Assembly: GCA_029215795.1 (NCBI GenBank)
Contig: JARDYH010000002.1
Location: 65,263,001 to 65,327,000, forward strand
DNA length: 64,000 nt
Reading direction: 5' to 3'
DNA from: Anniella stebbinsi
Lineage: Eukaryota; Chordata; Lepidosauria; Squamata; Anniellidae
Shown: positions 7,780-59,517 of the stretch, in pieces
How the letters are laid out: the number at the start of each line of letters is the position of its first letter
How positions within the stretch are numbered: the stretch's first letter is position 1
Program-made: the position numbers and the translations under genes
The notes under the pieces: generated by a model
Database searches by the model: none
The model's input: the letters and a program-made list of their open reading frames with translations, nothing else
What the model was told of the DNA's origin: nothing

Positions 7780-8653
7780 CCTACCGGCTGGGGCGTCCGT
7801 TTCCCTCCGGTGCTCGGAATCTACTGAGAAACAGGCTTCGCGGCCTGTCCCTCAGTAGCGCGCCGGGTGATGACATCATCAGTCGGCGCACTGCTGAGAG
7901 ACAGGCCAGGAAGCCTGTTTCTTAGTAGATTCCAAGCACGGAGGGAAACGGACACCCCCAGCAGCAGCAGGTAAGGAGCGTGGGGCGGGGGGGGGCGGGG
8001 GGGCGCGGGGGAGTGGGGGGCGGCGCGGGTGCTCGCGGCAGGTGGGGGGCGGCGCGGGTGCTCGCGGCGGGGCACTTACCTGCTGGGGCTTCCCTCGGGT
8101 GCTCGGAATCTACTGAGAAACAGGCTTCACGGCCTGTCCCTACTGAGGGATAGGCCGCGAAGCCTGTTTCTCAGTAGATTCCGAGCACCGGAGGGAAGCC
8201 CCAGCAGGTAAGTGCCCCGTGCACCCGCGCCTCCCGCCCGCCCGCCCGCCCCGCGCTCCTTACCTGCTGCTGCTGGTGCTGGGGCTTCCCTCCGTGCTCG
8301 GAATCTACTGAGAAACAGGCTTCACGGCCTGTCCCTACTGAGGGATAGGCCGCGAAGCCTGTTTCTCAGTAGATTCCGAGCACCGGAGGGAAGCCCCAGC
8401 AGGTAAGTGCCCCGTGCACCCGCGCCTCCCGCCCGCCCGCCCGCCCCGCGCTCCTTACCTGCTGCTGCTGGTGCTGGGGCTTCCCTCCGTGCTCGGAATC
8501 TACTGAGAAACAGGCTTCACGGCCTGTCCCTCAGTAGCGCGCCGGATGATGACGTCATCACTCGGCGCGTTACTGAGAGACAGGCCAGGAAGCCTGTTTC
8601 TCAGTAGATTCCGAGCACGGAGGGAAGCCCCAGCACCAGCAGCAGCAGGTAAG
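7780..8653. repeat. Four GC-rich palindromic modules
   Basis: Palindromes at about 7780-7975, 8075-8212, 8259-8407 and 8454-8653 share arms containing AATCTACTGAGAAACAGGC and its complement. The second and third are almost identical with a 195-bp period. The fourth is centred on GATGACGTCATC, a perfect CRE-type TGACGTCA at 8550-8557; the first has the decayed TGACATCA. The inner modules are bounded by CTTACCTGCTG on the left and CAGCAGGTAAG on the right. Spacers are runs of G or C with quadruplex potential (for example 7981-8060 and 8660-8730). Confidence 0.8.
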
Positions 8654-8654
8654 G

Positions 8655-9077
8655 AGCGCGGGGCGGGTGGGGGGTGGGGGGGCGGCACGGATGTGCAGGG
8701 CGGGTGGGGGGGGCGGGGCGGGCACGAGACACTTACCTGCTGGGGCTTCATGTGCCACGTCTCCCTCTACCTCCCATGTGCTGCATTTCCCCTACCGTGC
8801 CTGCCCTGACCGCCTCTCCTATCTCTCACCTACCTCCCCATTGAGATTGCACTGTTGCTGCTGCTGCTGCCCCCTCCCACAATGCTCTAAGGAAGGACTT
8901 CCAAGAGTCAGGCATTTTGGCCTGTCTGAGGCACACAGGCTGCTTTTTACAGCCAGTGGAGTTTTTTCATAGAGACTGCCCCCCTCGCTCACCTTCTGAG
9001 GATCTTTGAGGAAAGCCATAGGGCGGGTGACTGCTCTGGGGAGCCCCACTGGTTATTCTTCCCCTTTGGCATTTGCT
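8655..9077. other. GC-rich to mixed spacer, no gene recognised
   Basis: A G-rich tract grades into mixed sequence with a short (GCT)n run near 8853-8872. There is no convincing coding frame. It lies inside the composite element. Confidence 0.4.
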
Positions 9078-9398
9078 TAGGGTGACCATATGAAAAGGAG
9101 GACAGGGCTCCTGTAACTTTTAACAGTTGTGTAGAGAAGGGAATTTCAGCTGGTGTCATTTGTATGCATGCAGCACCTGGTGAAATTCCCTCTTCATCAC
9201 TGTAGTTAAAGCTGCAGGAGCCCTGCCCGCTTTTGTACCTGGTCACTCTAGTATAGCTCCTGCAGCTTTAACTACAGTGATGAAGAGGGAATTTCACCAG
9301 GTGCTGCATGCATACAAATGATACCAGCTGAAATTCCCTTCTCTACACAACTGTTAAAGATACAGGAGCCCTGTCCTCCTTTTCATATGGTCACCCTA
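9078..9398. mobile_element. Foldback MITE, TAGGGTGACC family
   Basis: About 320 bp, opening TAGGGTGACCATATG and closing CATATGGTCACCCTA. The two halves are inverted copies with GCATGCAGCACCTGGTGAA in each. It sits inside the composite element 7555-11434, so it is either a later insertion or a constituent. Its flanks do not show a clean 8-bp duplication. Confidence 0.8.
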
Positions 9399-9751
9399 GT
9401 GTTTGAAGCTTTCAACTTTATAACCATATGGTCCAAACTTTTAGAAAAAGGAAGGGAACAGTGTATGTGTGTAGGTGGGGAGGGGGAAAGATTAAAAGGA
9501 ATGTATAGCTACCTATCCCAAGGAGAGATCACAAGGAGAGATCTGAAGACCAGGTTATGATGGATCCAGATGAAGGTTGAAAGAGATCTCTCCTAGAATC
9601 CAGGGTATAGAACTCAGCAAAGTCCAGGTAGGGAAAATTAAGCCACGTAGAGAGTGTAGAAAATATTTAAAAATGAAAAGATCAAAATCAAATAGAGGGT
9701 GAAAACAACACCAAGCTGCTCACACCCTAAGAAAACAACACCCTAAGATCA

Positions 9752-32728: not shown

Positions 32729-32739
32729 TAGGGGTGTGC

Positions 32740-32882
32740 ATCGGATCGGATCCGATCCACGATCCGAATCCGATCCGCCCCAAAAATCGGAAAATCCGAT
32801 CCGATCCGATCCGATACACCATCCGATCCGATCCGATCCGATCCGGCGAGGTCCGATCCAGATCGGATCGGATCGGCGGATC
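32740..32882. promoter_or_regulatory. Subterminal GATCCGATCC array, left
   Basis: A dense run of CGGATC / GATCCG units in both orientations just inside the terminus. The right end has the same motif but in a different arrangement. Clustered subterminal repeats are known transposase-binding sites in hAT elements; a BED finger would be the natural reader here. That role is inferred. Confidence 0.55.
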
Positions 32883-33504
32883 GGACGCCATTTTAAATGC
32901 GTTTTTCCCATAGCAAAGTATTGTTGTTTTACAAAAACGCCTATAACTTTTTCATTTTTAACGACAGAAGGATGAAACTTGGGCACATTGTACACTTGTT
33001 AGGGATAGGTATCTGTGAGAAATTTCAGAAAGATTGGTGCATGCAGTTTGTGGCAATTAATTTTTTAATAAATAACATGGAATGCCTATAACTCGGTCAT
33101 TTTTAAAGTTACACACATGAAACTTTGCCACATTGTAGGTGGAACCTTGGGACCCACGTGTGTGAAATCCCAGAACCGTGGGTGCTTGCCTGGTGTGGCA
33201 ATGAATTTTTGAAAAATGGGTAGTAGTGGGGTAAATGCAGTTATGCCTCCCATGTTTTTATTTTTAAAGATACAAACAGGACACTTCGGCACATTACAGG
33301 GAACACTTCCCTTGATATGTGTGTAAAATTTCAGACAGCTAGCTCCAGGCATGTGTTGGCAATGAATTGTTGAAAATTGGGTAGCAGTGGGGTAAAATAC
33401 AGTTTTGCCTCCCATTTTTTTATTTTCAAAGATACAAACGGGAAACTTTGGCACATTGCAGGGAACACTTCACTTCAAATGTGTGTGAAATTTCCGGAAG
33501 CTAG

Positions 33505-33958
33505 GTGCAACATTTTAGTGGGAAACGAACGTTTATTCATGGCATTTCACATGGGATTTATGGGTTGGTTTTAAGAGCTACAAACCTCTAACTCGCTCAC
33601 ATGGCACAGGACCTATGCCCGCTCAAACGCTGGAAATTTAACAAACTTTGGTGCAATGCTTTAGTGGGAAAACAAAGGTTTATGCATGGCATTTCACATG
33701 GGATTTATGGGTTGGTTTTAAGAGCTACAAACCTCTAACTCGCTCACATGGCACAGGACCTATGCCCGCTCAAACGCTGGAAATTTAACAAACTTTGGTG
33801 CAATGCTTTAGTGGGAAAACAAAGGTTTATGCATGGCATTTCACATGGGATTTATGGGTTGGTTTTAAGAGCTACAAAACTCTAACTCGCTCACATGGCA
33901 CAGGACCTATGCCCGCTCAAACGCTGGAAATTTAACAAACTTTGGTGCAATGCTTTAG
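33505..33958 (+). repeat. 147-bp tandem repeat, three units (left arm)
   Basis: Units start at 33505, 33651, 33798 and 33945 (the last partial), each opening GTGCAATGCTTTAGTGGG (first copy diverged). Units contain AACTCGCTCACATGGCACAG. The right arm has four units. Confidence 0.9.
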
Positions 33959-34084
33959 TGGGAAAACAAAGGTTAAACTTTATTATTTTAAACCTTCAGG
34001 AAAGGGAGGGGGAGGCTGTGTTTGTGTGTGTGTGTTTGACAGCTTGATCCACCAATTGTGCTTTAGAATACATGACTGAATCAC

Positions 34085-34147
34085 CCAATCCTGTGAAGAC
34101 TTTCTTCAGCCTCCAATCGCAATGCTGGAGGAGGGCACCAGTATATA
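34085..34147 (+). promoter_or_regulatory. Putative transposase promoter
   Basis: CCAAT at 34085-34089 and 34113-34117 precedes TATATA at 34142-34147, with the transposase start 470 bp downstream. The order and spacing fit an RNA polymerase II core promoter with initiation near 34170. The start site is inferred. Confidence 0.5.
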
Positions 34148-34616
34148 TTCTCTCAGCCCTGCCCTTCTGGCTCTTTGTGGGTTGAACGTGGAGGAGATTA
34201 GGGAGTGTTTTGGAGCTGTGTTGGAGAGACTGTATTGATTTGATTGTATTTGGAGGTGGTTTTGAGGAGTTTCTGATCTTTTACTTCAGCTTTTCTTGTT
34301 CTCTCTCTTGGCTTTCCTTTCTCTCTTGCCTTTCCTTTCTTAGATAGCACGTTTGTTTGTCTGTGAGTTCAGTTTGTCTTTGCAGTGAGTGTGTTTGTTT
34401 GTTCTACTTTCGCTTTCTGAAAAAAACCCAAAAAAATAATAAAAAAATATTTCTATCCTCTCTCTCTCTCTCTCTCTCTCTTTCTCTGTGTGTGTGTGTG
34501 TGTGTGCGCGCTTGTGAGTGAGTGTGTGTTGCTGGGCTGTGTAGCCTGCTGCTACAAACACAAAAAAAGTCAGCAAAGCACACACTTACACAAAAATAAA
34601 TAATAATAAAAATAAA
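34148..34616 (+). other. Transposase leader with (CT)n and (GT)n tracts
   Basis: T- and pyrimidine-rich leader with (CT)n at about 34459-34482 and (GT)n at about 34487-34506. An in-frame stop lies just upstream of the ATG, so the coding region does not extend further 5'. Confidence 0.6.
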
Positions 34617-37142
34617 ATGAAGCGTGGCACTCAAAGGGGGGGTGCTCCCAAGGCAGCATTTGGGAGAGGCCGCTCTGGGCATGGCGCTGCTGCTGCTGCT
34701 GCTGGGACCAGCAGCAGGCAGCCTACTTCCACACCCCCAGTTAAACTGAGGCGTTCTCCACTGGGGCAGCAGAAGCAGGCAGAGGCAACTCAAAGTAGTG
34801 CCTGCAGGGCACTCTTTCAGCAACATGAGGCAGGTGCTGGGAGCAGCAGTGGGCATGAAGAAGGAGCACTATATTATCCAGCTCCTTCTTTGGTGGGTGA
34901 GCCTGTGAACCCGCTGACTGATCTTTTCCCAGATCTTGTGGAAGTCAGCGAGGTTCAGAGTGAGAAGGAGGACTCTGATGTGGGGCAAGAGGAAGAGCAG
35001 GCAGCACCAGAGACTTACTCTCCACAATCCGTCCTCTCTTCCACTCATTCCCTTGCTCCTGAGGTGACACCACAGAGCGAAGGCGCCGGCAGGCCGTCTG
35101 TGTCACCCCAGAAGCGACAGGCAAGCAAGGTGTGGGACCACTTTGAGGTGGCAGTGGATTCCCGCTTTGCTGTCTGTCGCCACTGCAAGATGTCAGTGAG
35201 CAGGGGAAAAATGCCAGGCCACTTCACCACCACGAACCTCACCCGCCACATGCAGAGGCACCACCAGTCTGTTTTGCTTGGGACCGAGGCGGGCACCTCG
35301 CAGCAGACTGGTGCTAGCGGCAAGGGCAAGCAGAAGGCTCCTGCAACTTCTGCCAGCTCTCGACCTCCCATCCCCAAGAGGCTTCGCCAGGCCACCATGG
35401 AAGAGATGGGGTGGGGGAAGTATGGAGCCACAAGGTGGCGTTTTCCAGCGCCCAACCAGATCACCAATTGCATCGGTGAGATGGTGGCGTTGGATGACCA
35501 GCCATTCAGCCTCGTCGAGAACGCAGGCTTCAAGAGGCTGATGGCTCTTGTGGTTCCATACTACAAGCCGCCGTGTCGCACCACCCTGAGCAGGCGTGTG
35601 GTGCCCTCCCTGTACCAGGCATGCAGGGAGTTAGTTCTGGGTCGTCTGTGCCAGGCAGAGGCACAGAAGGTGCACTTCACTTCGGACATCTGGTCCAGCG
35701 AAGGAGGAGTGCACGCTTACCTGTCCCTGACGGCTCACTGGTGGGGAGCCTCAGGGCAGGAAGCACCCAGGACTTCTGGGACTGGGAAGGAGGGCTGCCG
35801 CTGGGCCCTCCTTCATACCGCAGTCATGGACCAGTCCCACACGGCGGAGGAGATTACGGAGGCCATGAACCGCATGGTGGCAGGGTGGCTGGGCGGGCAC
35901 CAGCACACCCGCGGTTACATGGTCACGGACGGGGGAGCCAATATGCTGAAGGCGGTGCGCGATGGCGGATTTGAGGGCATCCGCTGCATCGCGCACGTCT
36001 TCAACCTGGTCGTCAGGGATGGCCTTGGAGGCAGCAAGGCCCCTCTCCCTCCCCAAATCCGTAATCTCCTAGAGAGCTGCAGGAAGGTGGCTGGGCATTT
36101 CCACCACAGCGTGAAGGGCAGTCGGTTGCTGCGGGAGAAGCAGCAGGAGCTGGGACTTCCGCAGCACCGGCTAGTGCAGGACGTGGCAACACGTTGGAAC
36201 TCCACCTACCACATGCTCGAGCGTATGGTGGAGCAACAGCGTGTTGTCCACGAGATGTTCAGGGTCGGGGACATTGGCATCCAGGCCCCACTGTCCAGGC
36301 AGCAGTGGGAGGCCATGTCCCAGCTTCTGGTGGTCCTCAAGCCGTTCCTTGAGGCCACCGAGACCCTGAGCAGCAGCACTGCCCTTCTCAGCCAGGTGCT
36401 CCCCGTGGCCAGGCATCTCCAGAATCAGATGGGCGAGTTTCTGGAGGCCGGGGATGCCGTCACCGGCAGGCGCTTCCTGCCAGAGGTGCGGGAAGTGGTG
36501 ACGAGGCTGAGGGAAAGCCTATCCCGCCGGGTCCAGCCTCTCTACAACGAGAGGCAGTACATGTTGGCCACCATGTGCGACCCGCGCATCAAGGATGGGT
36601 TATGTGGGCAGACTTCCCGGGCAGGTTGGGTGGAAATGCTGGTGACGGACGTTCGGGCGGCCCGGGATGCCAGGATTGGGCAGGCAGAGGAGGAGCCCAC
36701 CGAAGCCCAGGCGCTAAGTCCGCTGAGCACCACCAGCAGCGGCGGCACCACCACACCCAGCAGGGGGACAGGCCAGGGGTTTTGGGACAAGGCTTTGCAG
36801 GCTGCGGTTGGGCATAGAGGCACTCAACCCAGCCGCCGCCAGGATGACGCTGCAGCAGCAGTGCAGCGTTACCTGGCGGAGCAGATGGAGGACGGCTCCA
36901 TCGAACCCCTGGCCTACTGGTCATCTCGGCGCCAGATGTGGCCTGATCTGGCGCGGGTGGCCATGGACAGAATCAGCTGCCCACCGTCCAGCGTTCCAAG
37001 CGAGCGGGTGTTTTCCATGGCGGGCGACGTGGTCACACCCCACCACTCTCGCTTGGACGCTGAGATTGTGGAGCAGCTGGTCTTCCTCAAGGTCAATCTG
37101 CCCCTGCTGGGATACCCCACCCTCATGCCCGCGGGGGAGTAA
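34617..37142 (+). CDS. hAT transposase with BED zinc finger
   Basis: 841 codons, uninterrupted, catalysing cut-and-paste transposition in the nucleus. Residues 1-160 are low-complexity (poly-Ala, Gln/Ser-rich, an acidic patch near 95-125). A BED finger follows: aromatic VWDHF at 172-176, Cys187, Cys190, His211, His215 (C-x2-C-x20-H-x3-H), which would bind the element ends. The RNase H-like core shows FTSDIWSS with Asp357, VTDGGANM with Asp438, CIAHVFNLVV, and VATRWNSTYHMLERM. The C-terminal dimerisation segment has PSSVPSERVFSMAG with Glu796 as the likely third catalytic residue, completing D-D-E. The long spacing between the second Asp and Glu matches the helical insertion of Hermes-like hAT enzymes. 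All expected motifs are present, so activity is plausible. The gene is intronless and GC-rich compared with the AT-rich arms. No AATAAA was seen soon after the stop. Confidence 0.95.
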   Translation: MKRGTQRGGAPKAAFGRGRSGHGAAAAAAGTSSRQPTSTPPVKLRRSPLGQQKQAEATQSSACRALFQQHEAGAGSSSGHEEGALYYPAPSLVGEPVNPLTDLFPDLVEVSEVQSEKEDSDVGQEEEQAAPETYSPQSVLSSTHSLAPEVTPQSEGAGRPSVSPQKRQASKVWDHFEVAVDSRFAVCRHCKMSVSRGKMPGHFTTTNLTRHMQRHHQSVLLGTEAGTSQQTGASGKGKQKAPATSASSRPPIPKRLRQATMEEMGWGKYGATRWRFPAPNQITNCIGEMVALDDQPFSLVENAGFKRLMALVVPYYKPPCRTTLSRRVVPSLYQACRELVLGRLCQAEAQKVHFTSDIWSSEGGVHAYLSLTAHWWGASGQEAPRTSGTGKEGCRWALLHTAVMDQSHTAEEITEAMNRMVAGWLGGHQHTRGYMVTDGGANMLKAVRDGGFEGIRCIAHVFNLVVRDGLGGSKAPLPPQIRNLLESCRKVAGHFHHSVKGSRLLREKQQELGLPQHRLVQDVATRWNSTYHMLERMVEQQRVVHEMFRVGDIGIQAPLSRQQWEAMSQLLVVLKPFLEATETLSSSTALLSQVLPVARHLQNQMGEFLEAGDAVTGRRFLPEVREVVTRLRESLSRRVQPLYNERQYMLATMCDPRIKDGLCGQTSRAGWVEMLVTDVRAARDARIGQAEEEPTEAQALSPLSTTSSGGTTTPSRGTGQGFWDKALQAAVGHRGTQPSRRQDDAAAAVQRYLAEQMEDGSIEPLAYWSSRRQMWPDLARVAMDRISCPPSSVPSERVFSMAGDVVTPHHSRLDAEIVEQLVFLKVNLPLLGYPTLMPAGE

Positions 37143-37716
37143 TTGGCAGGCACCCCCCATCCATCCCACACCTTTGGGCAGGCACCGGCAGGCCCTTGAT
37201 TTTTTAATTCTTATTTTCGGTTAATTAATTTTCTTTACTTTAATTTACTGGCTGTGTTGTTTACAGCTCAGTAACTCAACTCTGAACGATGGATCCCGAA
37301 GGGATCTAGTTTCTTCTCCTAGCCTCTTACATTGAGGGGATGCACAAGCATCTCACACATTCTATGTTGTTTGACTTGAACCAATGTGCTTGCACGTGTG
37401 CCTCTGAAATTGGACTCCGATGGCTCCCTCCAGGCCTTCTGTAAGGTCCCACACTTCCATGGGCGTTTCTTCTTGTAAGACCACGTCAGAGGCTCATGAG
37501 AACTTTGGATAAGAAGAAGGCTTAATTTTATCGCCAAGGAACGCATGCACCTCTCTGACTATGAACGAAGGACGCGATAGGATTCCTCTTCCAGGCTCCT
37601 ACATTGAGTGGATGACAAGCAGCATCCCACACTGTTTCTGACTGTGTCTTTTGGACTTATGTGGCAGCCTTGCAGGGCTGTCACTGTGTGTTGTGTTTAT
37701 TTTGGCTATATGATTT
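37143..37716. other. Transposase 3' region with diverged duplication
   Basis: About 37290-37360 and 37560-37640 are diverged direct copies: both have GAACGA, then CTTACATTGAG or CCTACATTGAG, then GCATC(T/C)CACAC. No coding frame and no AATAAA were seen. Confidence 0.5.
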
Positions 37717-39302
37717 AAAAAACTGCCTGCCCGCCTGCCCGCCTGCTAGGTTGCCGCCATTGTGAAGTAGCCGGAATGCGTGGGCTGGTCTCACGGTTTC
37801 ATTGCTTACTTGTGCAATGCGCAAGCGCCTGGCATCATGCCCGCCTCTGCCTCTGCCTCTGCCTGCCTGCCTGCCCGCCTGCTAGGTTGCCGCCATTGTG
37901 AAGTAGCCGGAATGCGTGGGCTGGTCTCACGGTTCTATTGCTTACTTGTGCAATGCGCAAGCGCCTGGCATCATGCCCGCCTCTGCCTCTGCCTCTGCCT
38001 GCCCGCCTGCCCGCCTGCTAGGTTGCCGCCATTGTGAAGTAGCCGGAATGCGTGGGCTGGTCTCACGGTTCTATTGCTTACTTGTGCAATGCGCAAGCGC
38101 CTGGCATCATGCCCGCCTCTGCCTCTGCCTCTGCCTCTGCCTCTGCCTGCCTGCCTGCCCGCCTGCTAGGTTGCCGCCATTGTGAAGTAGCCGGAATGCG
38201 TGGGCTGGTCTCACGGTTCTATTGCTTACTTGTGCAATGCGCAAGCGCCTGGCATCATGCCCGCCTCTGCCTCTGCCTCTGCCTGCCCGCCTGCCCGCCT
38301 GCTAGGTTGCCGCCATTGTGAAGTAGCCGGAATGCGTGGGCTGGTCTCACGGTTCTATTGCTTACTTGTGCAATGCGCAAGCGCCTGGCATCATGCCCGC
38401 CTCTGCCTCTGCCTCTGCCTCTGCCTCTGCCTGCCCGCCTGCCCGCCTGCTAGGTTGCCGCCATTGTGAAGTAGCCGGAATGCGTGGGCTGGTCTCACGG
38501 TTCTATTGCTTACTTGTGCAATGTGCAAGCGCCTGGCATCATGCCCGCCTCTGCCTCTGCCTCTGCCTGCCTGCCTGCCTGCCCGCCTGCCCGCCTGCTA
38601 GGTTGCCGCCATTGTGAAGTAGCCGGAATGCGTGGGCTGGTCTCACGGTTCTATTGCTTACTTGTGCAATGTGCAAGCGCCTGGCATCATGCCCGCCTCT
38701 GCCTCTGCCTCTGCCTGCCTGCCTGCCTGCCCGCCTGCCCGCCTGCTAGGTTGCCGCCATTGTGAAGTAGCCGGAATGCGTGGGCTGGTCTCACGGTTCT
38801 ATTGCTTACTTGTGCAATGTGCAAGCGCCTGGCATCATGCCCGCCTCTGCCTCTGCCTCTGCCTGCCTGCCTGCCTGCCCGCCTGCCCGCCTGCTAGGTT
38901 GCCGCCATTGTGAAGTAGCCGGAATGCGTGGGCTGGTCTCACGGTTCTATTGCTTACTTGTGCAATGTGCAAGCGCCTGGCATCATGCCCGCCTCTGCCT
39001 CTGCCTCTGCCTGCCTGCCTGCCTGCCCGCCTGCCCGCCTGCTAGGTTGCCGCCATTGTGAAGTAGCCGGAATGCGTGGGCTGGTCTCACGGTTCTATTG
39101 CTTACTTGTGCAATGTGCAAGCGCCTGGCATCATGCCCGCCTCTGCCTCTGCCTCTGCCTGCCTGCCTGCCTGCCCGCCTGCCCGCCTGCTAGGTTGCCG
39201 CCATTGTGAAGTAGCCGGAATGCGTGGGCTGGTCTCACGGTTCTATTGCTTACTTGTGCAATGTGCAAGCGCCTGGCATCATGCCCGCCTCTGCCTCTGC
39301 CT

Positions 39303-39333
<31 letters not shown>

Positions 39334-39734
39334 CTAGGTTGCCGCCATTGTGAAGTAGCCGGAATGCGTGGGCTGGTCTCACGGTTCTATTGCTTACTTG
39401 TGCAATGTGCAAGCGCCTGGCATCATGCCCGCCTCTGCCTCTGCCTCTGCCTGCCTGCCTGCCTGCCTGCCCGCCTGCTAGGTTGCCGCCATTGTGAAGT
39501 AGCCGGAATGCGTGGGCTGGTCTCACGGTTCTATTGCTTACTTGTGCAATGTGCAAGCGCCTGGCATCATGCCCGCCTCTGCCTCTGCCTCTGCCTGCCT
39601 GCCTGCCTGCCTGCCCGCCTGCTAGGTTGCCGCCATTGTGAAGTAGCCGGAATGCGTGGGCTGGTCTCACGGTTCTATTGCTTACTTGTGCAATGTGCAA
39701 GCGCCTGGCATCATGCCCGCCTCTGCCTCTGCCT

Positions 39735-39765
<31 letters not shown>

Positions 39766-39892
39766 CTAGGTTGCCGCCATTGTGAAGTAGCCGGAATGCG
39801 TGGGCTGGTCTCACGGTTCTATTGCTTACTTGTGCAATGTGCAAGCGCCTGGCATCATGCCCGCCTCTGCCTGCCCGCCCGCCTGCCTGCCT
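37717..39892 (+). repeat. Satellite, 15 units of 136/144/148 bp
   Basis: The core GGTTGCCGCCATTGTGAAG...GCGTGGGCTGGTCTCACGG recurs with the same point in each unit at 37780, 37916, 38052, 38200, 38336, 38484, 38632, 38780, 38928, 39076, 39224, 39368, 39512, 39656 and 39800. Length differences come only from the (CTCTGC)n and (CCTG/CCCG)n tracts joining the cores. Cores are nearly identical; from 38484 on, a shared GCGCAAG to GTGCAAG change marks a later-expanded subset. Open frames across it are artefacts of periodicity. Each core has a YY1-like complement ATGGCGGC and a C/EBP-like TTGTGCAAT. Confidence 0.95.
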
Positions 39893-41050
39893 GGAGGTGC
39901 CCATGCAGCTGTGACTTTGCCTCTGCCAGTGGGACTTTGCCTCTGCCACTGGGACTTTGCCTCTGCCACTGGGACTTTGCCTGGAGGGAGCTGTGCCAAA
40001 CTGTGACTTTGCCTGGAGGGAGCTGTGCCAAACTGGGACTTTGCCTGGAGGGAGCTGTGCCAAACTGTGACTTTGCCTGGAGGACCCTGTGCCAATGTGA
40101 CTTTGCCTGGAGGAGCCTGTGCCACTGGGACTTTGCCTGGAGGGAGCTGTGCCAAACTGTGACTTTGCCTGGAGGGAGCTGTGCCAAACTGGGACTTTGC
40201 CTGGAGGGAGCTGTGCCAAACTGTGACTTTGCCTGGAGGACCCTGTGCCAATGTGACTTTGCCTGGAGGGAGCTGTGCCAAACTGTGACTTTGCCTGGAG
40301 GACCCTGTGCCAATGTGACTTTGCCTGGAGGGAGCTGTGCCAAACTGTGACTTTGCCTGGAGGACCCTGTGCCAACGTGACTTTGCCTGGAGGAGCCTAT
40401 GCCACTGGGACTTTGCCTGGAGGACCCTGTGCCAATGTGACTTTGCCTGGAGGGAGCTGTGCCAAACTGTGACTTTGCCTGGAGGACCCTGTGCCAACGT
40501 GACTTTGCCTGGAGGGAGCTGTGCCAAACTGTGACTTTGCCTGGAGGACCCTGTGCCAATGTGACTTTGCCTGGAGGGAGCTGTGCCAAACTGTGACTTT
40601 GCCTGGAGGACCCTGTGCCAACGTGACTTTGCCTGGAGGAGCCTATGCCACTGGGACTTTGCCTGGAGGACCCTGTGCCAATGTGACTTTGCCTGGAGGG
40701 AGCTGTGCCAAACTGTGACTTTGCCTGGAGGACCCTGTGCCAACGTGACTTTGCCTGGAGGAGCCTATGCCACTGGGACTTTGCCTGGAGGACCCTGTGC
40801 CAATGTGACTTTGCCTGGAGGACCCTGTGCCAATGTGACTTTGCCTGGAGGGAGCTGTGCCAAACTGTGACTTTGCCTGGAGGACCCTGTGCCAATGTGA
40901 CTTTGCCTGGAGGGAGCTGTGCCAAACTGTGACTTTGCCTGGAGGACCCTGTGCCAATGTGACTTTGCCTGGAGTAGCCTATGCCACTGGGACTTTGCCT
41001 GGAGGAGCCTGTGCCACTGGGACTTTGCCTGGAGGAGCCTATGTGCCACT
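39893..41050 (+). repeat. 30/32-bp minisatellite with 184-bp higher order
   Basis: Units begin ACTTTGCCTGGAGG and end either GAGCTGTGCCAAACTGTG (32 bp) or ACCCTGTGCCAATGTG / AGCCTATGCCACTGGG (30 bp). From about 40337 the same ordered set of six units repeats every 184 bp (landmarks 40337, 40521, 40705). Long frames on both strands here are by-products of the repeat. It ends in a unique stretch leading to AATAAG|GTAAGTG at 41085/41086. Confidence 0.9.
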
Positions 41051-41249
41051 GGAGTCCTCCGATCCACAGCCGCCGCACGAATAAGGTAAGTGTGTGCAGT
41101 CAACGCAGGGACACCTGAGAGTGTCCAGAAGTGGGGCAGTGTGAGATCTTACTTCCGAGTAAGCAAGCAGACTGCCCATCTGCCCCAGCCACGGCCGCAT
41201 GGAGGTGGCCCCTCGATTCACGTCGCCCCTACGACTCAGGTAAGAGTGC
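41051..41249 (+). other. Candidate 5' exon edge and truncated exon B
   Basis: A consensus donor AATAAG|GTAAGTG lies at 41085/41086. At about 41178-41239 there is a 62-bp 3' part of the exon B sequence (ACTGCCCATCTGCCCCAGCC onward), ending ACTCAG|GTAAGAG at 41239/41240. Its upstream junction joins intron sequence (GAGTAAGCAAGCAG) directly to mid-exon sequence, so it is a recombinant, lacking the normal polypyrimidine tract. Confidence 0.55.
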
Positions 41250-41427
41250 AGGCAGAGTGGCCATATAGAAAAGAAGGCAGGGCCCCTGCACCTTTAACTG
41301 TTGTGATGAAGAGGGAATCTCAGCAGGAACTAATTCCATACAAATGACACTGGCAGAAATTCCCTTTTCTCTACAACTGCTGAAGTTAGGAACCCTGACC
41401 TGGATTTGATCTGGTCAGCCTAACGTA
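41250..41427 (-). mobile_element. Half of a TAGGGTGACC-type MITE
   Basis: Runs from GAGTGGCCATATAGAAAAGAAG to GATCTGGTCAGCCTA. It matches the right half of 53379-53698 (GTTGTGATGAAGAGGGAAT, AATGACACTGGC). It lies inside the giant hAT, so it inserted into or was captured by an ancestor of that element. Confidence 0.6.
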
Positions 41428-41743
41428 GGGTGCTATTAGGAGTGAATGAATAACCCAAGGACAAAAGAAATGGTGATTCTCTAATGATCCGGTAAGCTGT
41501 GTCCTGCCAGACACAAAAGGATAGCCAATCCCTCTAACAATGGGCTCAGAAGAGTGATTTAGAAAGGGAGGGGTGCAGGAGAAAGAGGATTGCATCACAA
41601 ACCAGAGAAGTGTGCCGGTGGGAGACTAGTTACTAGGACTTGCATGTATTAATTAATACAAATCTTTATTTATTTTCCTTTCTTCTTTTGCAGTATAAAA
41701 GTATTTATGTAATATTCATTATCCCCCTCCTCTTCTTTTGCAG

Positions 41744-44700
41744 CCTATGGCACTCTCACTGCCACAGTGCCCGGGAAAGGAGAGACTTTGCCCATTACAT
41801 GCCAGCCTGCCCGCCCGCTGCTGATGCCGCCTGCCGCCTTCCAGATCGTTCCTGCGAGGCGGGCCAGCCGCCTTTCTTGCACAAGCCATGGGACTAGGGG
41901 TCCTCCAGGAGAATCTCACCGAGTCCTCAACGCCCTCAGGACTATGGTAAGTGTTCTGTGAATGGGGGGGGGCACCTTCCACCTAACTGAAGGTTGGCTG
42001 TCTGCCTGCTAACTTCCGAGTGAGCAGGCAGCCCCGTGTGCCTACTGGGGCGTGGGCACTCAGGACCGGGCAGATGCCAGTCCTGGGTGAGAGGGAGCCA
42101 ATGGTGGAAAAGTATGATTTATCTCATGTTAATTCTTTTCCCCCCCCCCCTCCTTCTTTTGCAGCCTATGGAACTCTTCGCCACTGCGCAAAGCGTACCC
42201 GTGAATCCAGACTGCCCATCTGCCCCAGCCACGGCCGCATGGAGGTGGCCCATCGATTCACGTCGCCCGCACGACTCTGGTAAGAGCCTGTCAGAGAGCT
42301 TACCCACGAGTAAGCAAGCAGGCAGCCCCGTGTGCCTGCTGGGGCGTGGGCACTCAGGACGGGCACATGCCAGTCTTGGGTGGGAGGGAGCCAGTGGTGG
42401 AAAAGTATCATTTTCCTCATATTCTTCCCCCCCCCCTTCTTCTTTTGCAGCCTATGGAACTCTTTGCCACAGTGCCCAGGAGAGATGGTAATGCAGACTG
42501 CCCACCTGCCCGTCACTGCCCGCCTGGAAGTGGCATCTTATCAACAACGCCCTCAGGAGGACTACGGTAAGTGTTCTGTGAATGGGGGGGCACCTTCCAC
42601 CTAACTAAAGGGTGGCTGTCTGCCTGCTAACTTCCGAGTGAGCAGGCAGCCCCGTGTGCCTGCTTTGGCGTGGGCACTCAGGAAGGGCAATCCTGGGTGG
42701 AAGGGAGCTGGTTGTGTTAAAGTGGTCAACTAATATTCATTCTTTTCCCCCCCCCCTCCTTCTTTTGCAGCCTATGGAACTCTTCGCCACTGCGCAAAGC
42801 GTACCCGTGAATCCAGACTGCCCATCTGCCCCAGCCACGGCCGCATGGAGGTGGCCCATCGATTCACGTCGCCCGCACGACTCTGGTAAGAGCCTGTCAG
42901 AGAGCTTACCCACGAGTAAGCAAGCAGGCAGCCCCGTGTGCCTGCTGGGGCGTGGGCACTCAGGACGGGCACATGCCAGTCTTGGGTGGGAGGGAGCCAG
43001 TGGTGGAAAAGTATCATTTTCCTCATATTCTTCCCCCCCCCCCTTCTTCTTTTGCAGCCTATGGAACTCTTTGCCACAGTGCCCAGGAGAGACGGTAATG
43101 CAGACTGCCCACCTGCCCGTCACTGCCCGCCTGGAAGTGGCATCTTATCAACAACGCCCTCAGGAGGACTACGGTAAGTGTTCTGTGAATGGGGGGGGGC
43201 ACCTTCCACCTAACTGAAGGTTGGCTGTCTGCCTGCTAACTTCCGAGTGAGCAGGCAGCCCCGTGTGCCTACTGGGGCGTGGGCACTCAGGACCGGGCAG
43301 ATGCCAGTCCTGGGTGAGAGGGAGCCAATGGTGGAAAAGTATGATTTATCTCATGTTAATTCTTTTCCCCCCCCCTCCTTCTTTTGCAGCCTATGGAACT
43401 CTTCGCCACTGCGCAAAGCGTACCCGTGAATCCAGACTGCCCATCTGCCCCAGCCACGGCCGCATGGAGGTGGCCCATCGATTCACGTCGCCCGCACGAC
43501 TCTGGTAAGAGCCTGTCAGAGAGCTTACCCACGAGTAAGCAAGCAGGCAGCCCCGTGTGCCTGCTGGGGCGTGGGCACTCAGGACGGGCACATGCCAGTC
43601 TTGGGTGGGAGGGAGCCAGTGGTGGAAAAGTATCATTTTCCTCATATTCTTCCCCCCCCCTTCTTCTTTTGCAGCCTATGGAACTCTTTGCCACAGTGCC
43701 CAGGAGAGACGGTAATGCAGACTGCCCACCTGCCCGTCACTGCCCGCCTGGAAGTGGCATCTTATCAACAACGCCCTCAGGAGGACTACGGTAAGTGTTC
43801 TGTGAATGGGGGGGGGCACCTTCCACCTAACTGAAGGTTGGCTGTCTGCCTGCTAACTTCCGAGTGAGCAGGCAGCCCCGTGTGCCTGCTTTGGCGTGGG
43901 CACTCAGGAAGGGCAATCCTGGGTGGAAGGGAGCTGGTTGTGTTGAAGTGGTCAACTAATATTCATTCTTTTCCCCCCCCCCTTCTTCTTTTGCAGCCTA
44001 TGGCACTCTCACTGCCACAGTGCCCGGGAAAGGAGAGACTTTGCCCATTAAATGCCAGCCTGCCCGCCCGCTGCTGATGCCGCCTGCCGCCTTCCAGATC
44101 CTTCCTGCAAAGAGAGCAAGCCGCCCTCCTCGCACAAGCCATGGGACTTGGCATTCGCCCTCAAGGAGAATGTCACCCAGTCCCCAAAGCCGCTGTTGGA
44201 CTTTGCCCATTAAATGCCAGCCTGCCCGCCCGCTGCTGATGCCGCCTGCCGCCTCCCAGATCCTTCCTGCAAAGAGAGCAAGCCGCCCTCCTCGCACAAG
44301 CCATGGGACTTGGCATTCGCCCTCAAGGAGAATGTCACCCAGTCCCCAAAGCCGCTGTTGGACTTTGCCCATTAAATGCCAGCCTGCCCGCCCGCTGCTG
44401 ATGCCGCCTGCCGCCTTCCAGATCCTTCCTGCAAAGAGAGCAAGCCGCCCTCCTCGCACAAGCCATGGGACTTGGCATTCGCCCTCAAGGAGAATGTCAC
44501 CCAGTCCCCAAAGCCGCTGTTGGACTTTGCCCATTAAATGCCAGCCTGCCCGCCCGCTGCTGATGCCGCCTGCCGCCTTCCAGATCCTTCCTGCAAAGAG
44601 AGCAAGCCGCCCTCCTCGCACAAGCCATGGGACTTGGCATTCGCCCTCAAGGAGAATGTCACCCAGTCCCCAAAGCCGCTGTTGGACTTTGCCCATTAAA

Positions 44701-44916
44701 TGCCAGCCTGCCCGCCCGCTGCTGATGCCGCCTGCCGCCTCCCAGATCCTTCCTGCAAAGAGAGCAAGCCGCCCTCCTCGCACAAGCCATGGGACTTGGC
44801 ATTCGCCCTCAAGGAGAATGTCACCCAGTCCCCAATGCCGCTGTTGGACTTTGCCCATTAAATGCCAGCCTGCCTGCCCGCCTTCCAGATTCTGCTGTGG
44901 AAGGAGAAATAAATAA
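41744..44916 (+). CDS. Candidate spliced gene, tandem exons; no homology recognised
   Basis: Proposed exons: A 41744-41946, B1 42165-42279, C1 42451-42566, B2 42771-42885, C2 43058-43173, B3 43390-43504, C3 43675-43790, D 43997-44916. Every exon starts CCTATGG directly after a C/T-rich tract and TTTTGCAG; every donor is G|GTAAG. Introns are 170-218 bp. B is 115 bp and C 116 bp, so B+C is 231 bp (77 codons). Taking B in the frame YGTLRHCAK, C in LWNSLPQCP and D in YGTLTATVP, the frame is open from B1 to the TAA at 44914 for 536 codons; the first ATG in it is 42239, giving about 512 residues. The predicted protein is Pro/Arg/Cys-rich with 54-residue repeats at the C terminus. Exon A has a TAG (41895) in the linking frame and would be untranslated. 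A second path (A, B, D) is also open, and C exons contain a GTAATG that could act as an internal donor. The function is unknown. This could be a captured host gene fragment. Confidence 0.5.
41947..43996 (+). repeat. Exon-intron tandem array, 1,225-bp higher-order unit
   Basis: Exon B, intron b, exon C and a following intron form a unit of about 610 bp. The following intron is of two alternating types: type 1 at 41947 and 43174, type 2 at 42567 and 43791. The array is therefore a near-exact duplication of a block of about 1,225 bp. Copies differ mainly in the length of the poly-C part of the acceptor tract. Exons A, B, C and D share their first 20 or so bases and acceptor, implying older duplication of one exon. 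Confidence 0.85.
43997..44880 (+). repeat. 162-bp in-frame repeats in terminal exon
   Basis: The stretch TTTGCCCATTAAATGCC recurs every 162 bp (for example 44040, 44202, 44364), giving just over five units, each exactly 54 codons. Each encodes LPIKCQPARPLLMPP and CWT at its ends. Units differ by rare substitutions such as Phe or Ser in AAFQI/AASQI. Because the unit is a multiple of three, the minus strand also stays open (286 codons), so openness alone does not prove coding. Confidence 0.85.
44908..44916 (+). terminator. Poly(A) signal overlapping stop codon
   Basis: AATAAA at 44908-44913 is followed at once by TAA (44914-44916), the stop of the terminal-exon frame. A cleavage site near 44930-44940 is expected. 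I saw no other plus-strand AATAAA between the transposase stop and this point. Confidence 0.6.
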
Positions 44917-44935
44917 TACTAGGTGCTGCAAGAGA

Positions 44936-45246
44936 CCATGTGGATTGGCTCTACATCAAAGCAGCCTTCTGGTTTAGAATTACATAGTACACAAGAAAAG
45001 AACAATCACTTATCCTGCAAGATCCCTTCCCAGGCTAGGATCTGAATAATAGCTATTAGCTAGGATCTGAATAGCTATTACCTGGGATTAGCTACTAGTG
45101 CATTTGGTAGCATTCCTGCAACCAACACCTGTCTTGTCATGTAAATGTATGGGTCCCTAAAGCAAATTACAATCACTTTACATTTTACAAATGAATAAGT
45201 GAAACTTTCTTCCCTCATTACCAATCCACACCAGGCAGGCAATGTC
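44936..45246. other. Spacer before right TIR, no gene recognised
   Basis: AT-rich. A short local duplication (GCTAGGATCTGAATA twice, 45033-45075) is the only structure seen. Confidence 0.5.
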
Positions 45247-46651
45247 CCCTTCCTGAAGGTTTAAAATAATAAAGTTTAACCTTTGTTTTCCCACTAAAGC
45301 ATTGCACCAAAGTTTGTTAAATTTCCAGCGTTTGAGCGGGCATAGGTCCTGTGCCATGTGAGCGAGTTAGAGGTTTGTAGCTCTTAAAACAAACCCATAA
45401 ATCCCATGTGAAATGCCATGCATAAACCTTTGTTTTCCCACTAAAGCATTGCACCAAAGTTTGTTAAATTTCCAGCGTTTGAGCGGGCATAGGTCCTGTG
45501 CCATGTGAGCGAGTTAGAGTTTTGTAGCTCTTAAAACCAACCCATAAATCCCATGTGAAATGCCATGCATAAACCTTTGTTTTCCCACTAAAGCATTGCA
45601 CCAAAGTTTGTTAAATTTCCAGCGTTTGAGCGGGCATAGGTCCTGTGCCATGTGAGCGAGTTAGAGGTTTGTAGCTCTTAAAACCAACCCATAAATCCCA
45701 TGTGAAATGCCATGCATAAACCTTTGTTTTCCCACTAAAGCATTGCACCAAAGTTTGTTAAATTTCCAGCGTTTGAGCGGGCATAGGTCCTGTGCCATGT
45801 GAGCGAGTTAGAGGTTTGTAGCTCTTAAAACCAACCCATAAATCCCATGTGAAATGCCATGAATAAACGTTCGTTTCCCACTAAAATGTTGCACCTAGCT
45901 TCCGGAAATTTCACACACATTTGAAGTGAAGTGTTCCCTGCAATGTGCCAAAGTTTCCCGTTTGTATCTTTGAAAATAAAAAAATGGGAGGCAAAACTGT
46001 ATTTTACCCCACTGCTACCCAATTTTCAACAATTCATTGCCAACACATGCCTGGAGCTAGCTGTCTGAAATTTTACACACATATCAAGGGAAGTGTTCCC
46101 TGTAATGTGCCGAAGTGTCCTGTTTGTATCTTTAAAAATAAAAACATGGGAGGCATAACTGCATTTACCCCACTACTACCCATTTTTCAAAAATTCATTG
46201 CCACACCAGGCAAGCACCCACGGTTCTGGGATTTCACACACGTGGGTCCCAAGGTTCCACCTACAATGTGGCAAAGTTTCATGTGTGTAACTTTAAAAAT
46301 GACCGAGTTATAGGCATTCCATGTTATTTATTAAAAAATTAATTGCCACAAACTGCATGCACCAATCTTTCTGAAATTTCTCACAGATACCTATCCCTAA
46401 CCAGTGTACAATGTGCCCAAGTTTCATCCTTCTGTCGTTAAAAATGAAAAAGTTATAGGCGTTTTTGTAAAACAATAATTTGCTATAGGAAAAAGCATTC
46501 AAAATGGCGTCCGATCCGGATCGGAAAATCCGATCCGCGGATCGGAATCGGATCCGATCCGATCCGACACACGATCCGATCCGATCCGACCCCCCAGGTC
46601 CGATTCCGATCCGCTATCCGATCCGATCCGGGGGGTCAGTGCACATCCCTA
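45247..46651 (-). repeat. Right long terminal inverted repeat
   Basis: The inverted counterpart of 32729-34004. It has four 147-bp units (ends at 45454, 45601, 45748 and 45894), one more than the left arm, then the diverged 150-bp units, and a GATCC-rich array at about 46509-46637. Over about 500 bp (45825-46313) it encodes the same open frames as 33086-33574 without a residue change, so the arms are homogenised or young. Confidence 0.92.
46509..46637. promoter_or_regulatory. Subterminal GATCCGATCC array, right
   Basis: CGATCC units in both directions just inside the right terminus, in an order different from the left array and interrupted by short C or G runs. A transposase-binding role is inferred from position. 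Confidence 0.5.
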
Positions 46652-56440: not shown

Positions 56441-57123
56441 CATCCAGGCAGCCCCAGCCCCGAGTGCCAGGCCAGGCTAAGACGCCTGCACTCCCGACTG
56501 GGCCAGGCCACCCCATGGGCTTGAAGTCCAGCGTGTCACACTCCAGGCCAGGCCAGACTGCCCCACACCCGGCCAGGCTGTGCTGGGCCGGGTTGCCCTG
56601 CGCTGGGCCAGCTGCAACGCTCACCATGATGCCCCGGTGTGCCAGGAATGCCCCAGGACACCGGGTGAGGATGCTCCCCCACTGCGCCGCCCCATGGGTC
56701 ACACTGGGTCAGGCTGCACTGGGTCAGGCTGCACTGTGCCAAGCTGTGCTGCCCGCACGCCATGCCAACTTGCGCGCCGTGCCAGGCCGTGCCACCCTGC
56801 ACTGGCCCAGCACCCGTCCACCCCGCTTCCGCCTCGTCAACCCCACGCCCGCCCATCTCGCATGACCTGCACACTTGCCCGCCGCACCCTATGCCCGCCC
56901 CACCCACCCCGCAACCAGCAGCTGTGCACCCCACAACCACTCCACCTGCCTCACCTGCAGTTTGCCTGCCCACCCCGCACTCCACCCCCGCGCACCCGCT
57001 AGCCTCGCCCCACGCCCACCCCACAACTGCACACCCCACAACCGCACACCCCACAACTGCCTCATCCCACCCCACAACCCACTTGCCCCACCTGCACTGT
57101 ACTCACCCCGCGCCCACCTACCT
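56441..57123. other. GC-rich, C-skewed block, no gene recognised
   Basis: 56441-56800 has many GGCCAGGC, CTGGGCC and GTGCCA motifs. 56800-57123 is a degenerate repeat of CCCCACAACTGCACA-type units. Frames of up to 179 codons occur on both strands, but they follow base composition and carry no recognised domain. Confidence 0.5.
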
Positions 57124-57127
57124 AGGG

Positions 57128-57284
57128 TAGGCTGACCATCTGAAAAGGAGGACAGGGCTCCTCTAACTTTAACAGTTGTAGAGAAAAGGGAATTTCAGCC
57201 AGTGTCATTTGTATGCAATTAGTTCCTGGTGAAATTCCCTCTTCATCACAAAGTTGCAGGGGGCCTGCCTTCTTTTGTATATGG
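57128..57284 (+). mobile_element. Half foldback MITE
   Basis: TAGGCTGACCATCTGAAAAG to CTTTTGTATATGG, of the same subfamily as the left half of 60945-61264, joined directly to the next MITE. Confidence 0.7.
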
Positions 57285-58374
57285 TAGGGTGACCATATGA
57301 AAAGGAAGACAGGGCTCTTGTATCTTTAACAGTTGCGTAGAGAAGGGAATTTCAGCTGGTGTCCTTTGTATGCATGCAGCACCTGGTGAAATTCCCTCTT
57401 CATCACTGTAGTTAAAGCTGCAGGAGCCCTGCCCGCTTTTGTACCTGGTCACTCTAGTATAGCTCCTGCAGCTTTAACTACAGTGATGAAGAGGGAATTT
57501 CACCAGGTGCTGCATGCATACAAAGGACACCAGCTGAAATTCCCTTCTCTACGCAACTGTTAAAAGTTACAGGAGCCCTGTCCTCCTTTTCATATGGTCA
57601 CCCTAATTTAAATGGAATTTGCTTCCTTCCATGCACTTAAGCATGCTTAAAGAAGCAAATTCCATTTAAATTAGGATGACCATATGAAAAGGAGGACAGG
57701 GCTCCTGTAACTTTTAACAGTTGCGTAGAGAAGGGAATTTCAGCTGGTGTCCTTTGTATGCATGCAGCACCTGGTGAAATTCCCTCTTCATCACTGTAGT
57801 TAAAGCTGCAGGAGCTATACTAGAGTGACCAGGTACAAAAGCAGGCAGGGCTCCTGCAGCTTTAACTACAGTGATGAAGAGGGAATTTCACCAGGTGCTG
57901 CATGCATACAAAGGACACCAGCTGAAATTCCCTTCTCTACGCAACTGTTAAAAGTTACAGGAGCCCTGTCCTCCTTTTCATATGGTCACCCTAATTTAAA
58001 TGGAATTTGCTTCCTTCCATGCACTTAAGCATGCTTAAAGAAGCAAATTCCATTTAAATTAGGATGACCATATGAAAAGGAGGACAGGGCTCCTGTAACT
58101 TTTAACAGTTGCGTAGAGAAGGGAATTTCAGCTGGTGTCCTTTGTATGCATGCAGCACCTGGTGAAATTCCCTCTTCATCACTGTAGTTAAAGTTGCAGG
58201 AGCTATACTAGAGTGACCAGGTACAAAAGCGGGCAGGGCTCCTGCAGCTTTAACTACAGTGATGAAGAGGGAATTTCACCAGGTGCTGCATGCATACAAA
58301 GGACACCAGCTGAAATTCCCTTCTCTACACAACTGTTAAAAGTTACAGGAGCCCTGTCCTCCTTGGTCACCCTA
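57285..58374. repeat. Three tandem foldback MITEs with palindromic linkers
   Basis: MITE copies at 57285-57605, 57672-57993 and 58060-58374 are separated by two identical 66-bp palindromes (57606-57671 and 57994-58059) that begin and end with ATTTAAAT and contain GCACTTAAGCATGC. The period is 388 bp. The middle copy is flanked by ATTTAAAT on both sides. The last copy lacks part of its terminal arm (CTCCTTGGTCACCCTA). Confidence 0.88.
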
Positions 58375-58617
58375 AGGAAGCCCCAGCAGGTGCCCCGCGC
58401 CCCCACGCCGCCCCCACGCCGTGCGCCCCCACGCCGCCCCCCCGCCCCGCGCCCCCGCACGGCACCCCCACCCGCGCCGCCCCCCCGCCGTGAGCACCCG
58501 CACCGCCCCCCCACCGTGAGCACCCGCGCCGCCGCCCCCCACCCACCGCGAGCACCCGCACCGCCGCCCCCCACCCACCGCGAGCACCCGCGCCGCCCCC
58601 CCACCCCCCACGCGCTC
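58375..58617. other. C-rich spacer with quadruplex potential
   Basis: Runs of CCCCC separated by GCG or ACG on the plus strand. No coding frame is credible. Confidence 0.6.
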
Positions 58618-59282
58618 CTTACCTGCTGCTGCTAGGGCGTCCGTTTCCCTCCGTGCTTGGAATCTACTGAGAAACAGGCTTCTTGGCCTGTCTCTCAGCA
58701 GTGCGCCGAGTGATGACGTCATCACCCGGCGCGCTACTGAGGGATAGGCCGCGAAGCCTGTTTCTCAGTAGATTCCGAGCACCGGTGGGAAGCCCCAGCA
58801 GGTAAGTGCCCCACGCCCCCGCGCCGCCCCCCCGCCGTGCGCCCCCGCGCCGCCCCCCCCGCCCCGTGCCTCCCCCACACCCGCCGTGCGCACCCGCGCC
58901 GCCCCCCCGCCGCGCGCACCCGCGCGGCCCCCCCCCGCCGCAAGCACCCGCACCGCCCCCCCCGCCGCGAACACCCCCCCCGCCCCCCCGCCGCGAGCAC
59001 CCGCCCCGCCCCCCCGCCGTGAGCACCCGCCCCGCCGCCCCCCACCCACCGCGAGCACCTGCGCCGCCCCCCCACCCCCCACGCGCTCCTTACCTGCTGC
59101 TGCTGGGGCGTCCGTTTCCCTCCGTGCTTGGAATCTACTGAGAAACAGGCTTCTTGGCCTGTCTCTCAGCAGTGCGCCGAGTGATGACGTCATCACCCGG
59201 CGCGCTACTGAGGGATAGGCCGCGAAGCCTGTTTCTCAGTAGATTCCGAGCACCGGAGGGAAACGGACGCCCCAGCCGGTAG
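58618..59282. repeat. Two palindromic modules with CRE centres
   Basis: Palindromes at about 58618-58806 and 59089-59282 have arms AATCTACTGAGAAACAGGC and complement. Perfect TGACGTCA sits at 58714-58721 and 59185-59192 inside TGATGACGTCATCA. CTTACCTGCTGCTGCT bounds the left; the first ends CAGCAGGTAAG and the second CAGCCGGTAGG. Spacers are C-rich. Confidence 0.82.
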
Positions 59283-59517
59283 GTGCCTCGCGCCGCCAGC
59301 CTCCCGCCACCGCTGCGTGACCCCCCGCTGCCCCGGTTTGCCCCCGCCGCCCCGCGGTTGGCCCAGCTCGCCCCAGGGCCATCTGGTCACCGTTTTGGGG
59401 GGCTAAATTTCCGGATTTGGCCCCCCCAAACGGTATTTCCGCCCGGATGCGGATTTGCACCCCATTTCCCGGATATGTCCGGACAAATCCGGGCGTCTGG
59501 TCACCCTACATTGGGAG

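Follow-up and report, generated by a model that had tools for sequence, protein, structure and literature searches.

The window analysed here is a stretch of 64,000 nucleotides (nt) from Anniella stebbinsi (Squamata; GenBank assembly GCA_029215795.1, contig JARDYH010000002.1, positions 65,263,001 to 65,327,000 of the forward strand). It holds a hAT DNA transposon and, within that element and 3' of its transposase frame, an array of eight exon-like segments that all begin CCTATGG. An earlier note had taken these segments for the exons of a second, protein-coding gene. The array is a real and unusual structure. Probably it consists of exons that are spliced and, also probably, left untranslated; it belongs to a multicopy hAT element, and its arrangement changes between copies. 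The element, its transposase and the predicted exons, the first seven of which were delimited by splice-site pattern, are as follows.

32729..46651, + strand: hAT DNA transposon, 13.9 kb; termini and target duplications read directly
34617..37142, + strand: transposase frame, 841 amino acids, uninterrupted, with BED zinc finger and hAT dimerisation region (Pfam)
41744..41946, + strand: exon E, 203 nt
42165..42279, + strand: exon A1, 115 nt
42451..42566, + strand: exon B1, 116 nt
42771..42885, + strand: exon A2, 115 nt
43058..43173, + strand: exon B2, 116 nt
43390..43504, + strand: exon A3, 115 nt
43675..43790, + strand: exon B3, 116 nt
43997..44913, + strand: terminal exon T, five 162-bp repeats, no donor, AATAAA at 44908

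The transposon and its exon-like array

The segments at issue sit inside a hAT element. The element is bounded on each flank by the identical 8-bp target site duplication GTTTTTAA, and the transposase matches the Pfam families Dimer_Tnp_hAT (53.8 bits) and zf-BED (40 bits), both above cut-off; the duplication and the domains are those of hAT elements. Ten relatives align to the transposase at 38-49% identity, and the eight of them with a source name are ZBED4-like or BED-type proteins from caecilians, frogs and lizards. Size and terminal inverted repeat (TIR) length, which are typical of hAT elements and not defining, fall outside the usual values, with an element of 13.9 kb and inverted arms of about 1.1 kb (99.3% identity over 1,098 nt; in a second comparison 100% after rounding over 1,055 nt). 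The arms (32729-33990 and 45240-46651) are made up in part of 147-bp subterminal tandem repeats, have ATCCG-rich tips and exceed usual hAT TIRs in length by a wide margin.

A pyrimidine tract plus TTTTGCAG precedes CCTATGG at all eight segment starts, and the boundary TTCTTTTGCAG|CCTATGG falls at 41744, 42165, 42451, 42771, 43058, 43390, 43675 and 43997. A branch-point-like motif (yTnAy) lies 26-44 nt 5' of each start. The earlier note had all eight segments ending at G|GTAAG; the eight starts hold, but only seven segments end in this way, and the eighth has no donor and runs to the AATAAA at 44908. The intervening introns measure, in order, 218, 171, 204, 172, 216, 170 and 206 nt, in agreement with the short and uniform introns of 170-218 bp described before, and the junctions 42279|42451, 42566|42771 and 43790|43997 had been placed correctly. 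The 162-bp array of T occupies 44037-44881. The three A exons do not differ at all and the B copies do so at a single site; the introns, of types a, bI and bII, are 80-88% alike. The segments are thus tandem duplicates of exon-intron units with matched strong splice sites. Intron a (42280-42450), folded as RNA, scored better than all 200 of its shuffles (z -3.17), and its poly-C tract is paired in the predicted structure.

Splice-site strength was scored with a general matrix of vertebrate sites. On the + strand of the window, 9 of the 11 acceptors of at least 10 bits lie within 41000-44000; donors of at least 5 bits number 10 in 41000-44000 and 21 elsewhere in the window. The scan gave no donor of at least 4 bits in 34100-40999, no acceptor of at least 7 bits between 34344 and 41694, and no strong splice site in the 148-bp and 30/62-bp tandem arrays of the element. 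The 24-letter start pattern, with up to 3 mismatches allowed, occurred in none of 100 shuffles, against 8 exact matches in the window. When the A, B and E units were shuffled 5,000 times each, an acceptor of at least 10 bits together with a donor of at least 5 bits arose 1, 2 and 0 times, and 2, 3 and 9 times when acceptors of at least 8 bits were allowed. Matched pairs had been said to exceed what a satellite would hold, and for the single unit this is borne out (0-2 in 5,000); since A1-A3 are identical and the B copies differ once, however, the eight pairs are tandem copies and not eight independent observations. Among the diverged cassettes (five rows), a run of 19 columns across the acceptor is invariant, as is G|GTAAG in five donors whose surroundings differ. 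The 19-column run extends seven letters into the exon, so invariance is not confined to the splice signals.

Other copies of the array

The 1.89 Gb assembly (91 contigs) was searched with 200 bp of exon E. The best 40 of 917 first-look candidates, all on one contig, were combined with the window, which lies on another, to give 41 arrays; 4.2-5 kb was read per copy, about 1 kb of it upstream of E. Each of the 40 is 100% identical over the 200 bp of exon E, and 40 identical places on one contig, among 917 candidates, point to a very recent burst of the element. One further copy, the only one readable that far upstream, has the left arm and transposase upstream of its exon array at 99.6% identity over 4,005 nt, with zero stops across the 804 transposase codons read.

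The order and number of exons vary. The 41 arrays fall into 14 architecture strings, one of which differs solely by a shortened B; A-E-A-B-T (17 of 41) and E-A-B-T (7 of 41) are commonest, and the others reach eight exons and include B-B, A-A, E-B and E-E neighbours. Counted from the last E there are 10 exon orders, with E-A-B-T in 26 of 41 arrays. Frame-shifting neighbours of these four kinds, or the shortened B, occur in 8 of 41 copies. T ranges from 264 to 1,398 nt, in 162-bp steps except in two copies, and its AATAAA context is present in all 41.

The splice sites are kept throughout this variation. All 183 introns of the 41 arrays have GT..AG, and the 158 short ones measure 166-221 nt. 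Of 183 exons of types A, B and E, a single one, a B of 106 nt, departs from the standard length; each of the other 182 carries the tail of its own type. The donor half of a short intron matches the type of the upstream exon and the acceptor half that of the downstream exon: the acceptor half is of type a before B (64/64), bII before T (41/41) and bI before A (49/52, the other 3 being bII). Hybrid introns follow the same rule, ten B>B and four E>B introns being b5..a and one A>A intron being a5..bII. The introns resemble one another, and the simplest reading is that unequal exchange inside them has shuffled whole exons; an exchange at such a place would leave a complete intron behind.

Variation among copies, computed on the 38 of 41 arrays that end A-B-T, is 0.25% for A, 0.20% for B, 0.08% for intron a and 0.23% for intron b; it is lowest (0.066%) in the first 160 nt of T. 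The earlier note had named destroyed splice sites and loss of frame constraint in other copies as grounds against a gene; no splice dinucleotide is destroyed, but a frame constraint was not seen.

Readings of the array

Between transposase and array lie the following features. The element 3' of the transposase consists mostly of tandem arrays, namely the 148-bp and 20/30/62-bp arrays, the exon-like array and the 162-bp array.

37723..39893, + strand: 148-bp tandem array with 15 GCCGCCATTGTG motifs (motif count and tandem-repeat scan)
39909..41051, + strand: 20/30/62-bp tandem arrays, a little upstream of the predicted end of the first exon
41085..41086, + strand: first strong donor AAG|GTAAGT (last exon base 41085), in 30/30 copies
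41168..41239, + strand: remnant of an exon A0, donor only, acceptor removed by deletion
41694..41701, + strand: TATAAAAG, right after an extra acceptor-like tract; possible promoter if the array were a separate gene

The first donor, ACGAATAAG|GTAAGTGT, is kept in all 30 copies examined upstream. Upstream of exon E there are two more GGTAAG donors, at 41239 and 41491, as well as another acceptor (41694). Exon A0 is complete in 20 of the 30 copies, with its acceptor about 618 nt 5' of exon E; the deletion of that acceptor in the window is common to 10 of the 30. The intron between A0 and E holds one copy of a dispersed repeat (41254-41425, about 171 bp); other copies of it, 78-90% alike, occur on both strands elsewhere in the window. 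The 148-bp array also holds 15 CCGGAA motifs, presumably the ETS core, and has a CpG observed/expected ratio of 0.57; it could be a promoter or enhancer array. Related G+C-rich repeat clusters at 7800-9450 and 56900-59500 of the window share segments at 87-97% in both orientations, and CAG|GTAAGT donors stand at 8207 and 8402, inside a 195-bp tandem repeat.

The reading favoured here, with a probability of about 0.4, is that the array is a set of exon-intron cassettes at the 3' end of the hAT element, predicted to be transcribed and spliced, and that it is the untranslated tail of the transposase transcript, not a second protein. Neither AATAAA nor ATTAAA occurs in 37143-43996, and none of nine variant hexamers tested occurs before 41655, so a single transcription unit may cover transposase and array; a second gene standing apart from the transposase is accordingly not shown. 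T is the first place with a standard polyadenylation signal (ATTAAA from 44047, AATAAA at 44908). With no acceptor of at least 7 bits between 34344 and 41694, the segment ending at 41085 would belong to the first exon. The transposase transcript would extend through the array, with splicing from 41085 on, which, given one transcript across both, places the predicted first junction 3,943 nt past the stop (stop 37142, donor 41085) and would leave up to eight exon junctions 3.9 kb and more 3' of it. By analogy with other transcripts, such junctions would mark the mRNA for nonsense-mediated decay (NMD), and the number of cassettes could tune transposase output copy by copy. Unequal exchange between similar introns would add or remove whole exons while complete introns stay. 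The wider proposal, that the modular exon array of a vertebrate DNA transposon is reshuffled by intron recombination and that each copy, with its own noncoding tail, sets its own transposase level through splicing-dependent decay, is regarded as doubtful.

Several observations weigh against the untranslated-tail reading. The lack of polyadenylation signals is not unusual for a G+C-rich stretch: AATAAA was absent from 37143-44907 in 135 of 200 shuffles as well, and both hexamers from 37143-43996 in 84 of 200. ATTAAA occurs six times in T before 44908. The TATAAAAG at 41694 and the 148-bp array, whose GCCGCCATTGTG motif we take to be YY1-like, may provide a promoter of the array's own. The copies were chosen by identity of exon E, which biases the sample to young ones, and the exon finder, which depends on recognising the exon head, would overlook any cassette in which that head is wrecked; with copies this young and so selected, intact sites may reflect youth. 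Variation among the copies is too low to show any purifying selection on splice sites. Processed copies were looked for in the genome, with 0 matches to an A|B junction or to E or B joined to any cassette.

That the A-B-A-B-A-B-T chain encodes a repeat protein as cargo of the transposon, as first proposed, is very unlikely. The chain does form a single open frame from A1 through T, A plus B (231 nt) and the T repeat (162 nt) are multiples of three, the chain from A/B to T without E is open in 35 of 41 copies (closed in 6), and the start of T is, as noted, the least variable segment. Against this, 172 of 2,000 shuffles that kept exon lengths and first letters were equally open, in 39 of 41 copies a chain that takes in exon E is closed, the chain reads the homologous A and B starts in different frames, and A and B are no less variable among copies than introns a and b. 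The changed codons between paralogous segments are 12 nonsynonymous and 3 synonymous (one T-repeat change counted twice), where 75% nonsynonymous is expected by chance; the other two frames give 10:5 and 12:3, and the changes look neutral. No homologue of the predicted protein was found at E <= 10 among 5.8 billion proteins in two length-limited searches, one of which scored the 7,999 candidates sharing most words while the other had a total of 23 candidates. Scans of the conceptual peptides with Pfam and NCBIfam lend the protein no support, and Pfam gave no match, in keeping with the earlier remark that it belongs to no recognised family. In the raw repeat frames Hap4_Hap_bind exceeded its curated cut-off only as a sum over repeats, with no single stretch passing alone, and is repeat-driven; tRNA_int_end_N2, PPTA and Peptidase_S66 (the last on the opposite strand) stayed below their cut-offs and were set aside on the same ground. 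Three Rfam matches at E <= 0.5 were all below the gathering score, and a structured RNA family was likewise rejected. No viral contig gave an exact match to the exon-start pattern. A second protein built from these exons is not supported.

Two further explanations dispense with both a protein and a shared transcript. The array could be a separate noncoding gene, spliced from its own promoter at TATAAAAG or in the 148-bp array and independent of the transposase mRNA. The element has no other TATAAAAG, and the + strand of the window has a single further one; the 15 GCCGCCATTGTG motifs occur nowhere else in the window on either strand. The TATAAAAG follows a copy of the acceptor 50 nt 5' of exon E, however, and may be incidental, a start there would leave exon A0 and the donors at 41085, 41239 and 41491 unused, and no tested hexamer would end the transposase mRNA before 41655. 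We consider a separate noncoding gene unlikely. An explanation without any splicing, in which one ancestral intron-exon piece was amplified as a passive minisatellite and the splice-like letters persist through youth and homogenisation, is also rather improbable. It is open to consideration because the copies are young (about 0.1-0.25% apart in the array segments) and no processed copy is present, and it suits an element full of tandem arrays, which are known from the 3' regions of other transposable elements (Ogre PisTR-A, in passages of PMC9659126). It sits poorly with sites that survive in cassettes whose introns differ by 12-20%, with hybrid introns that are complete in every case, and with the lack of strong splice sites in the element's 148-bp and 30/62-bp arrays.

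If the array is spliced, the copies would offer a natural set of near-identical transposons in which different numbers of introns follow the transposase stop. With them one could test directly whether splicing and mRNA decay serve a selfish element as a means of self-regulation, and they would show how introns permit a change in exon number without breaking splicing.

Comparison with known systems

According to passages of PMC3942097, hAT elements usually measure 2.5-5 kb and carry 10-25 bp TIRs, and the transposase gene of BuT2 is divided into five exons. The present element resembles BuT2 and the ZBED4-like transposases in the 8-bp target duplication, in the BED and hAT dimerisation domains and in belonging to a group in whose transposase genes introns are known. 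It differs from the hAT elements of those passages in its 13.9 kb, in its arms of about 1.1 kb and in the position of its splice sites, which form part of a tandem array 3' of a transposase frame that is itself uninterrupted. Among titles and abstract openings, a literature from which subscription journals are largely absent, no hAT element was found in which duplicated, splice-competent exons form a downstream array, and the main text of a review of giant transposons (PMC6431247) does not mention hAT.

Partial likenesses exist elsewhere. Passages of PMC9659126 describe the tandem repeats PisTR-A in the hypervariable 3' untranslated part of Ogre elements, and tandem repetition in a hypervariable 3' part is common to both; Ogre is a long terminal repeat retrotransposon and that passage mentions no splice sites, whereas the repeat unit here comprises exon and introns. 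Exon junctions at least 50 nt after the stop can elicit NMD, as stated in passages of PMC6173133; compared with such targets with introns in the 3' untranslated region, the predicted junctions here would, given one transcript across both parts, also lie far 3' of the stop, and they are inferred from sequence only. The nearest functional likeness is with the CACTA elements En/Spm and Tgmt, in which, as described in passages of PMC2613891, the transposase unit yields a second, multi-exon spliced product of TnpA type besides the transposase mRNA. CACTA elements belong to another superfamily, and both RNA and a DNA-binding protein are reported for them; the present array is known from its sequence alone, has no credible protein and is built of exons that are tandem duplicates of one another.

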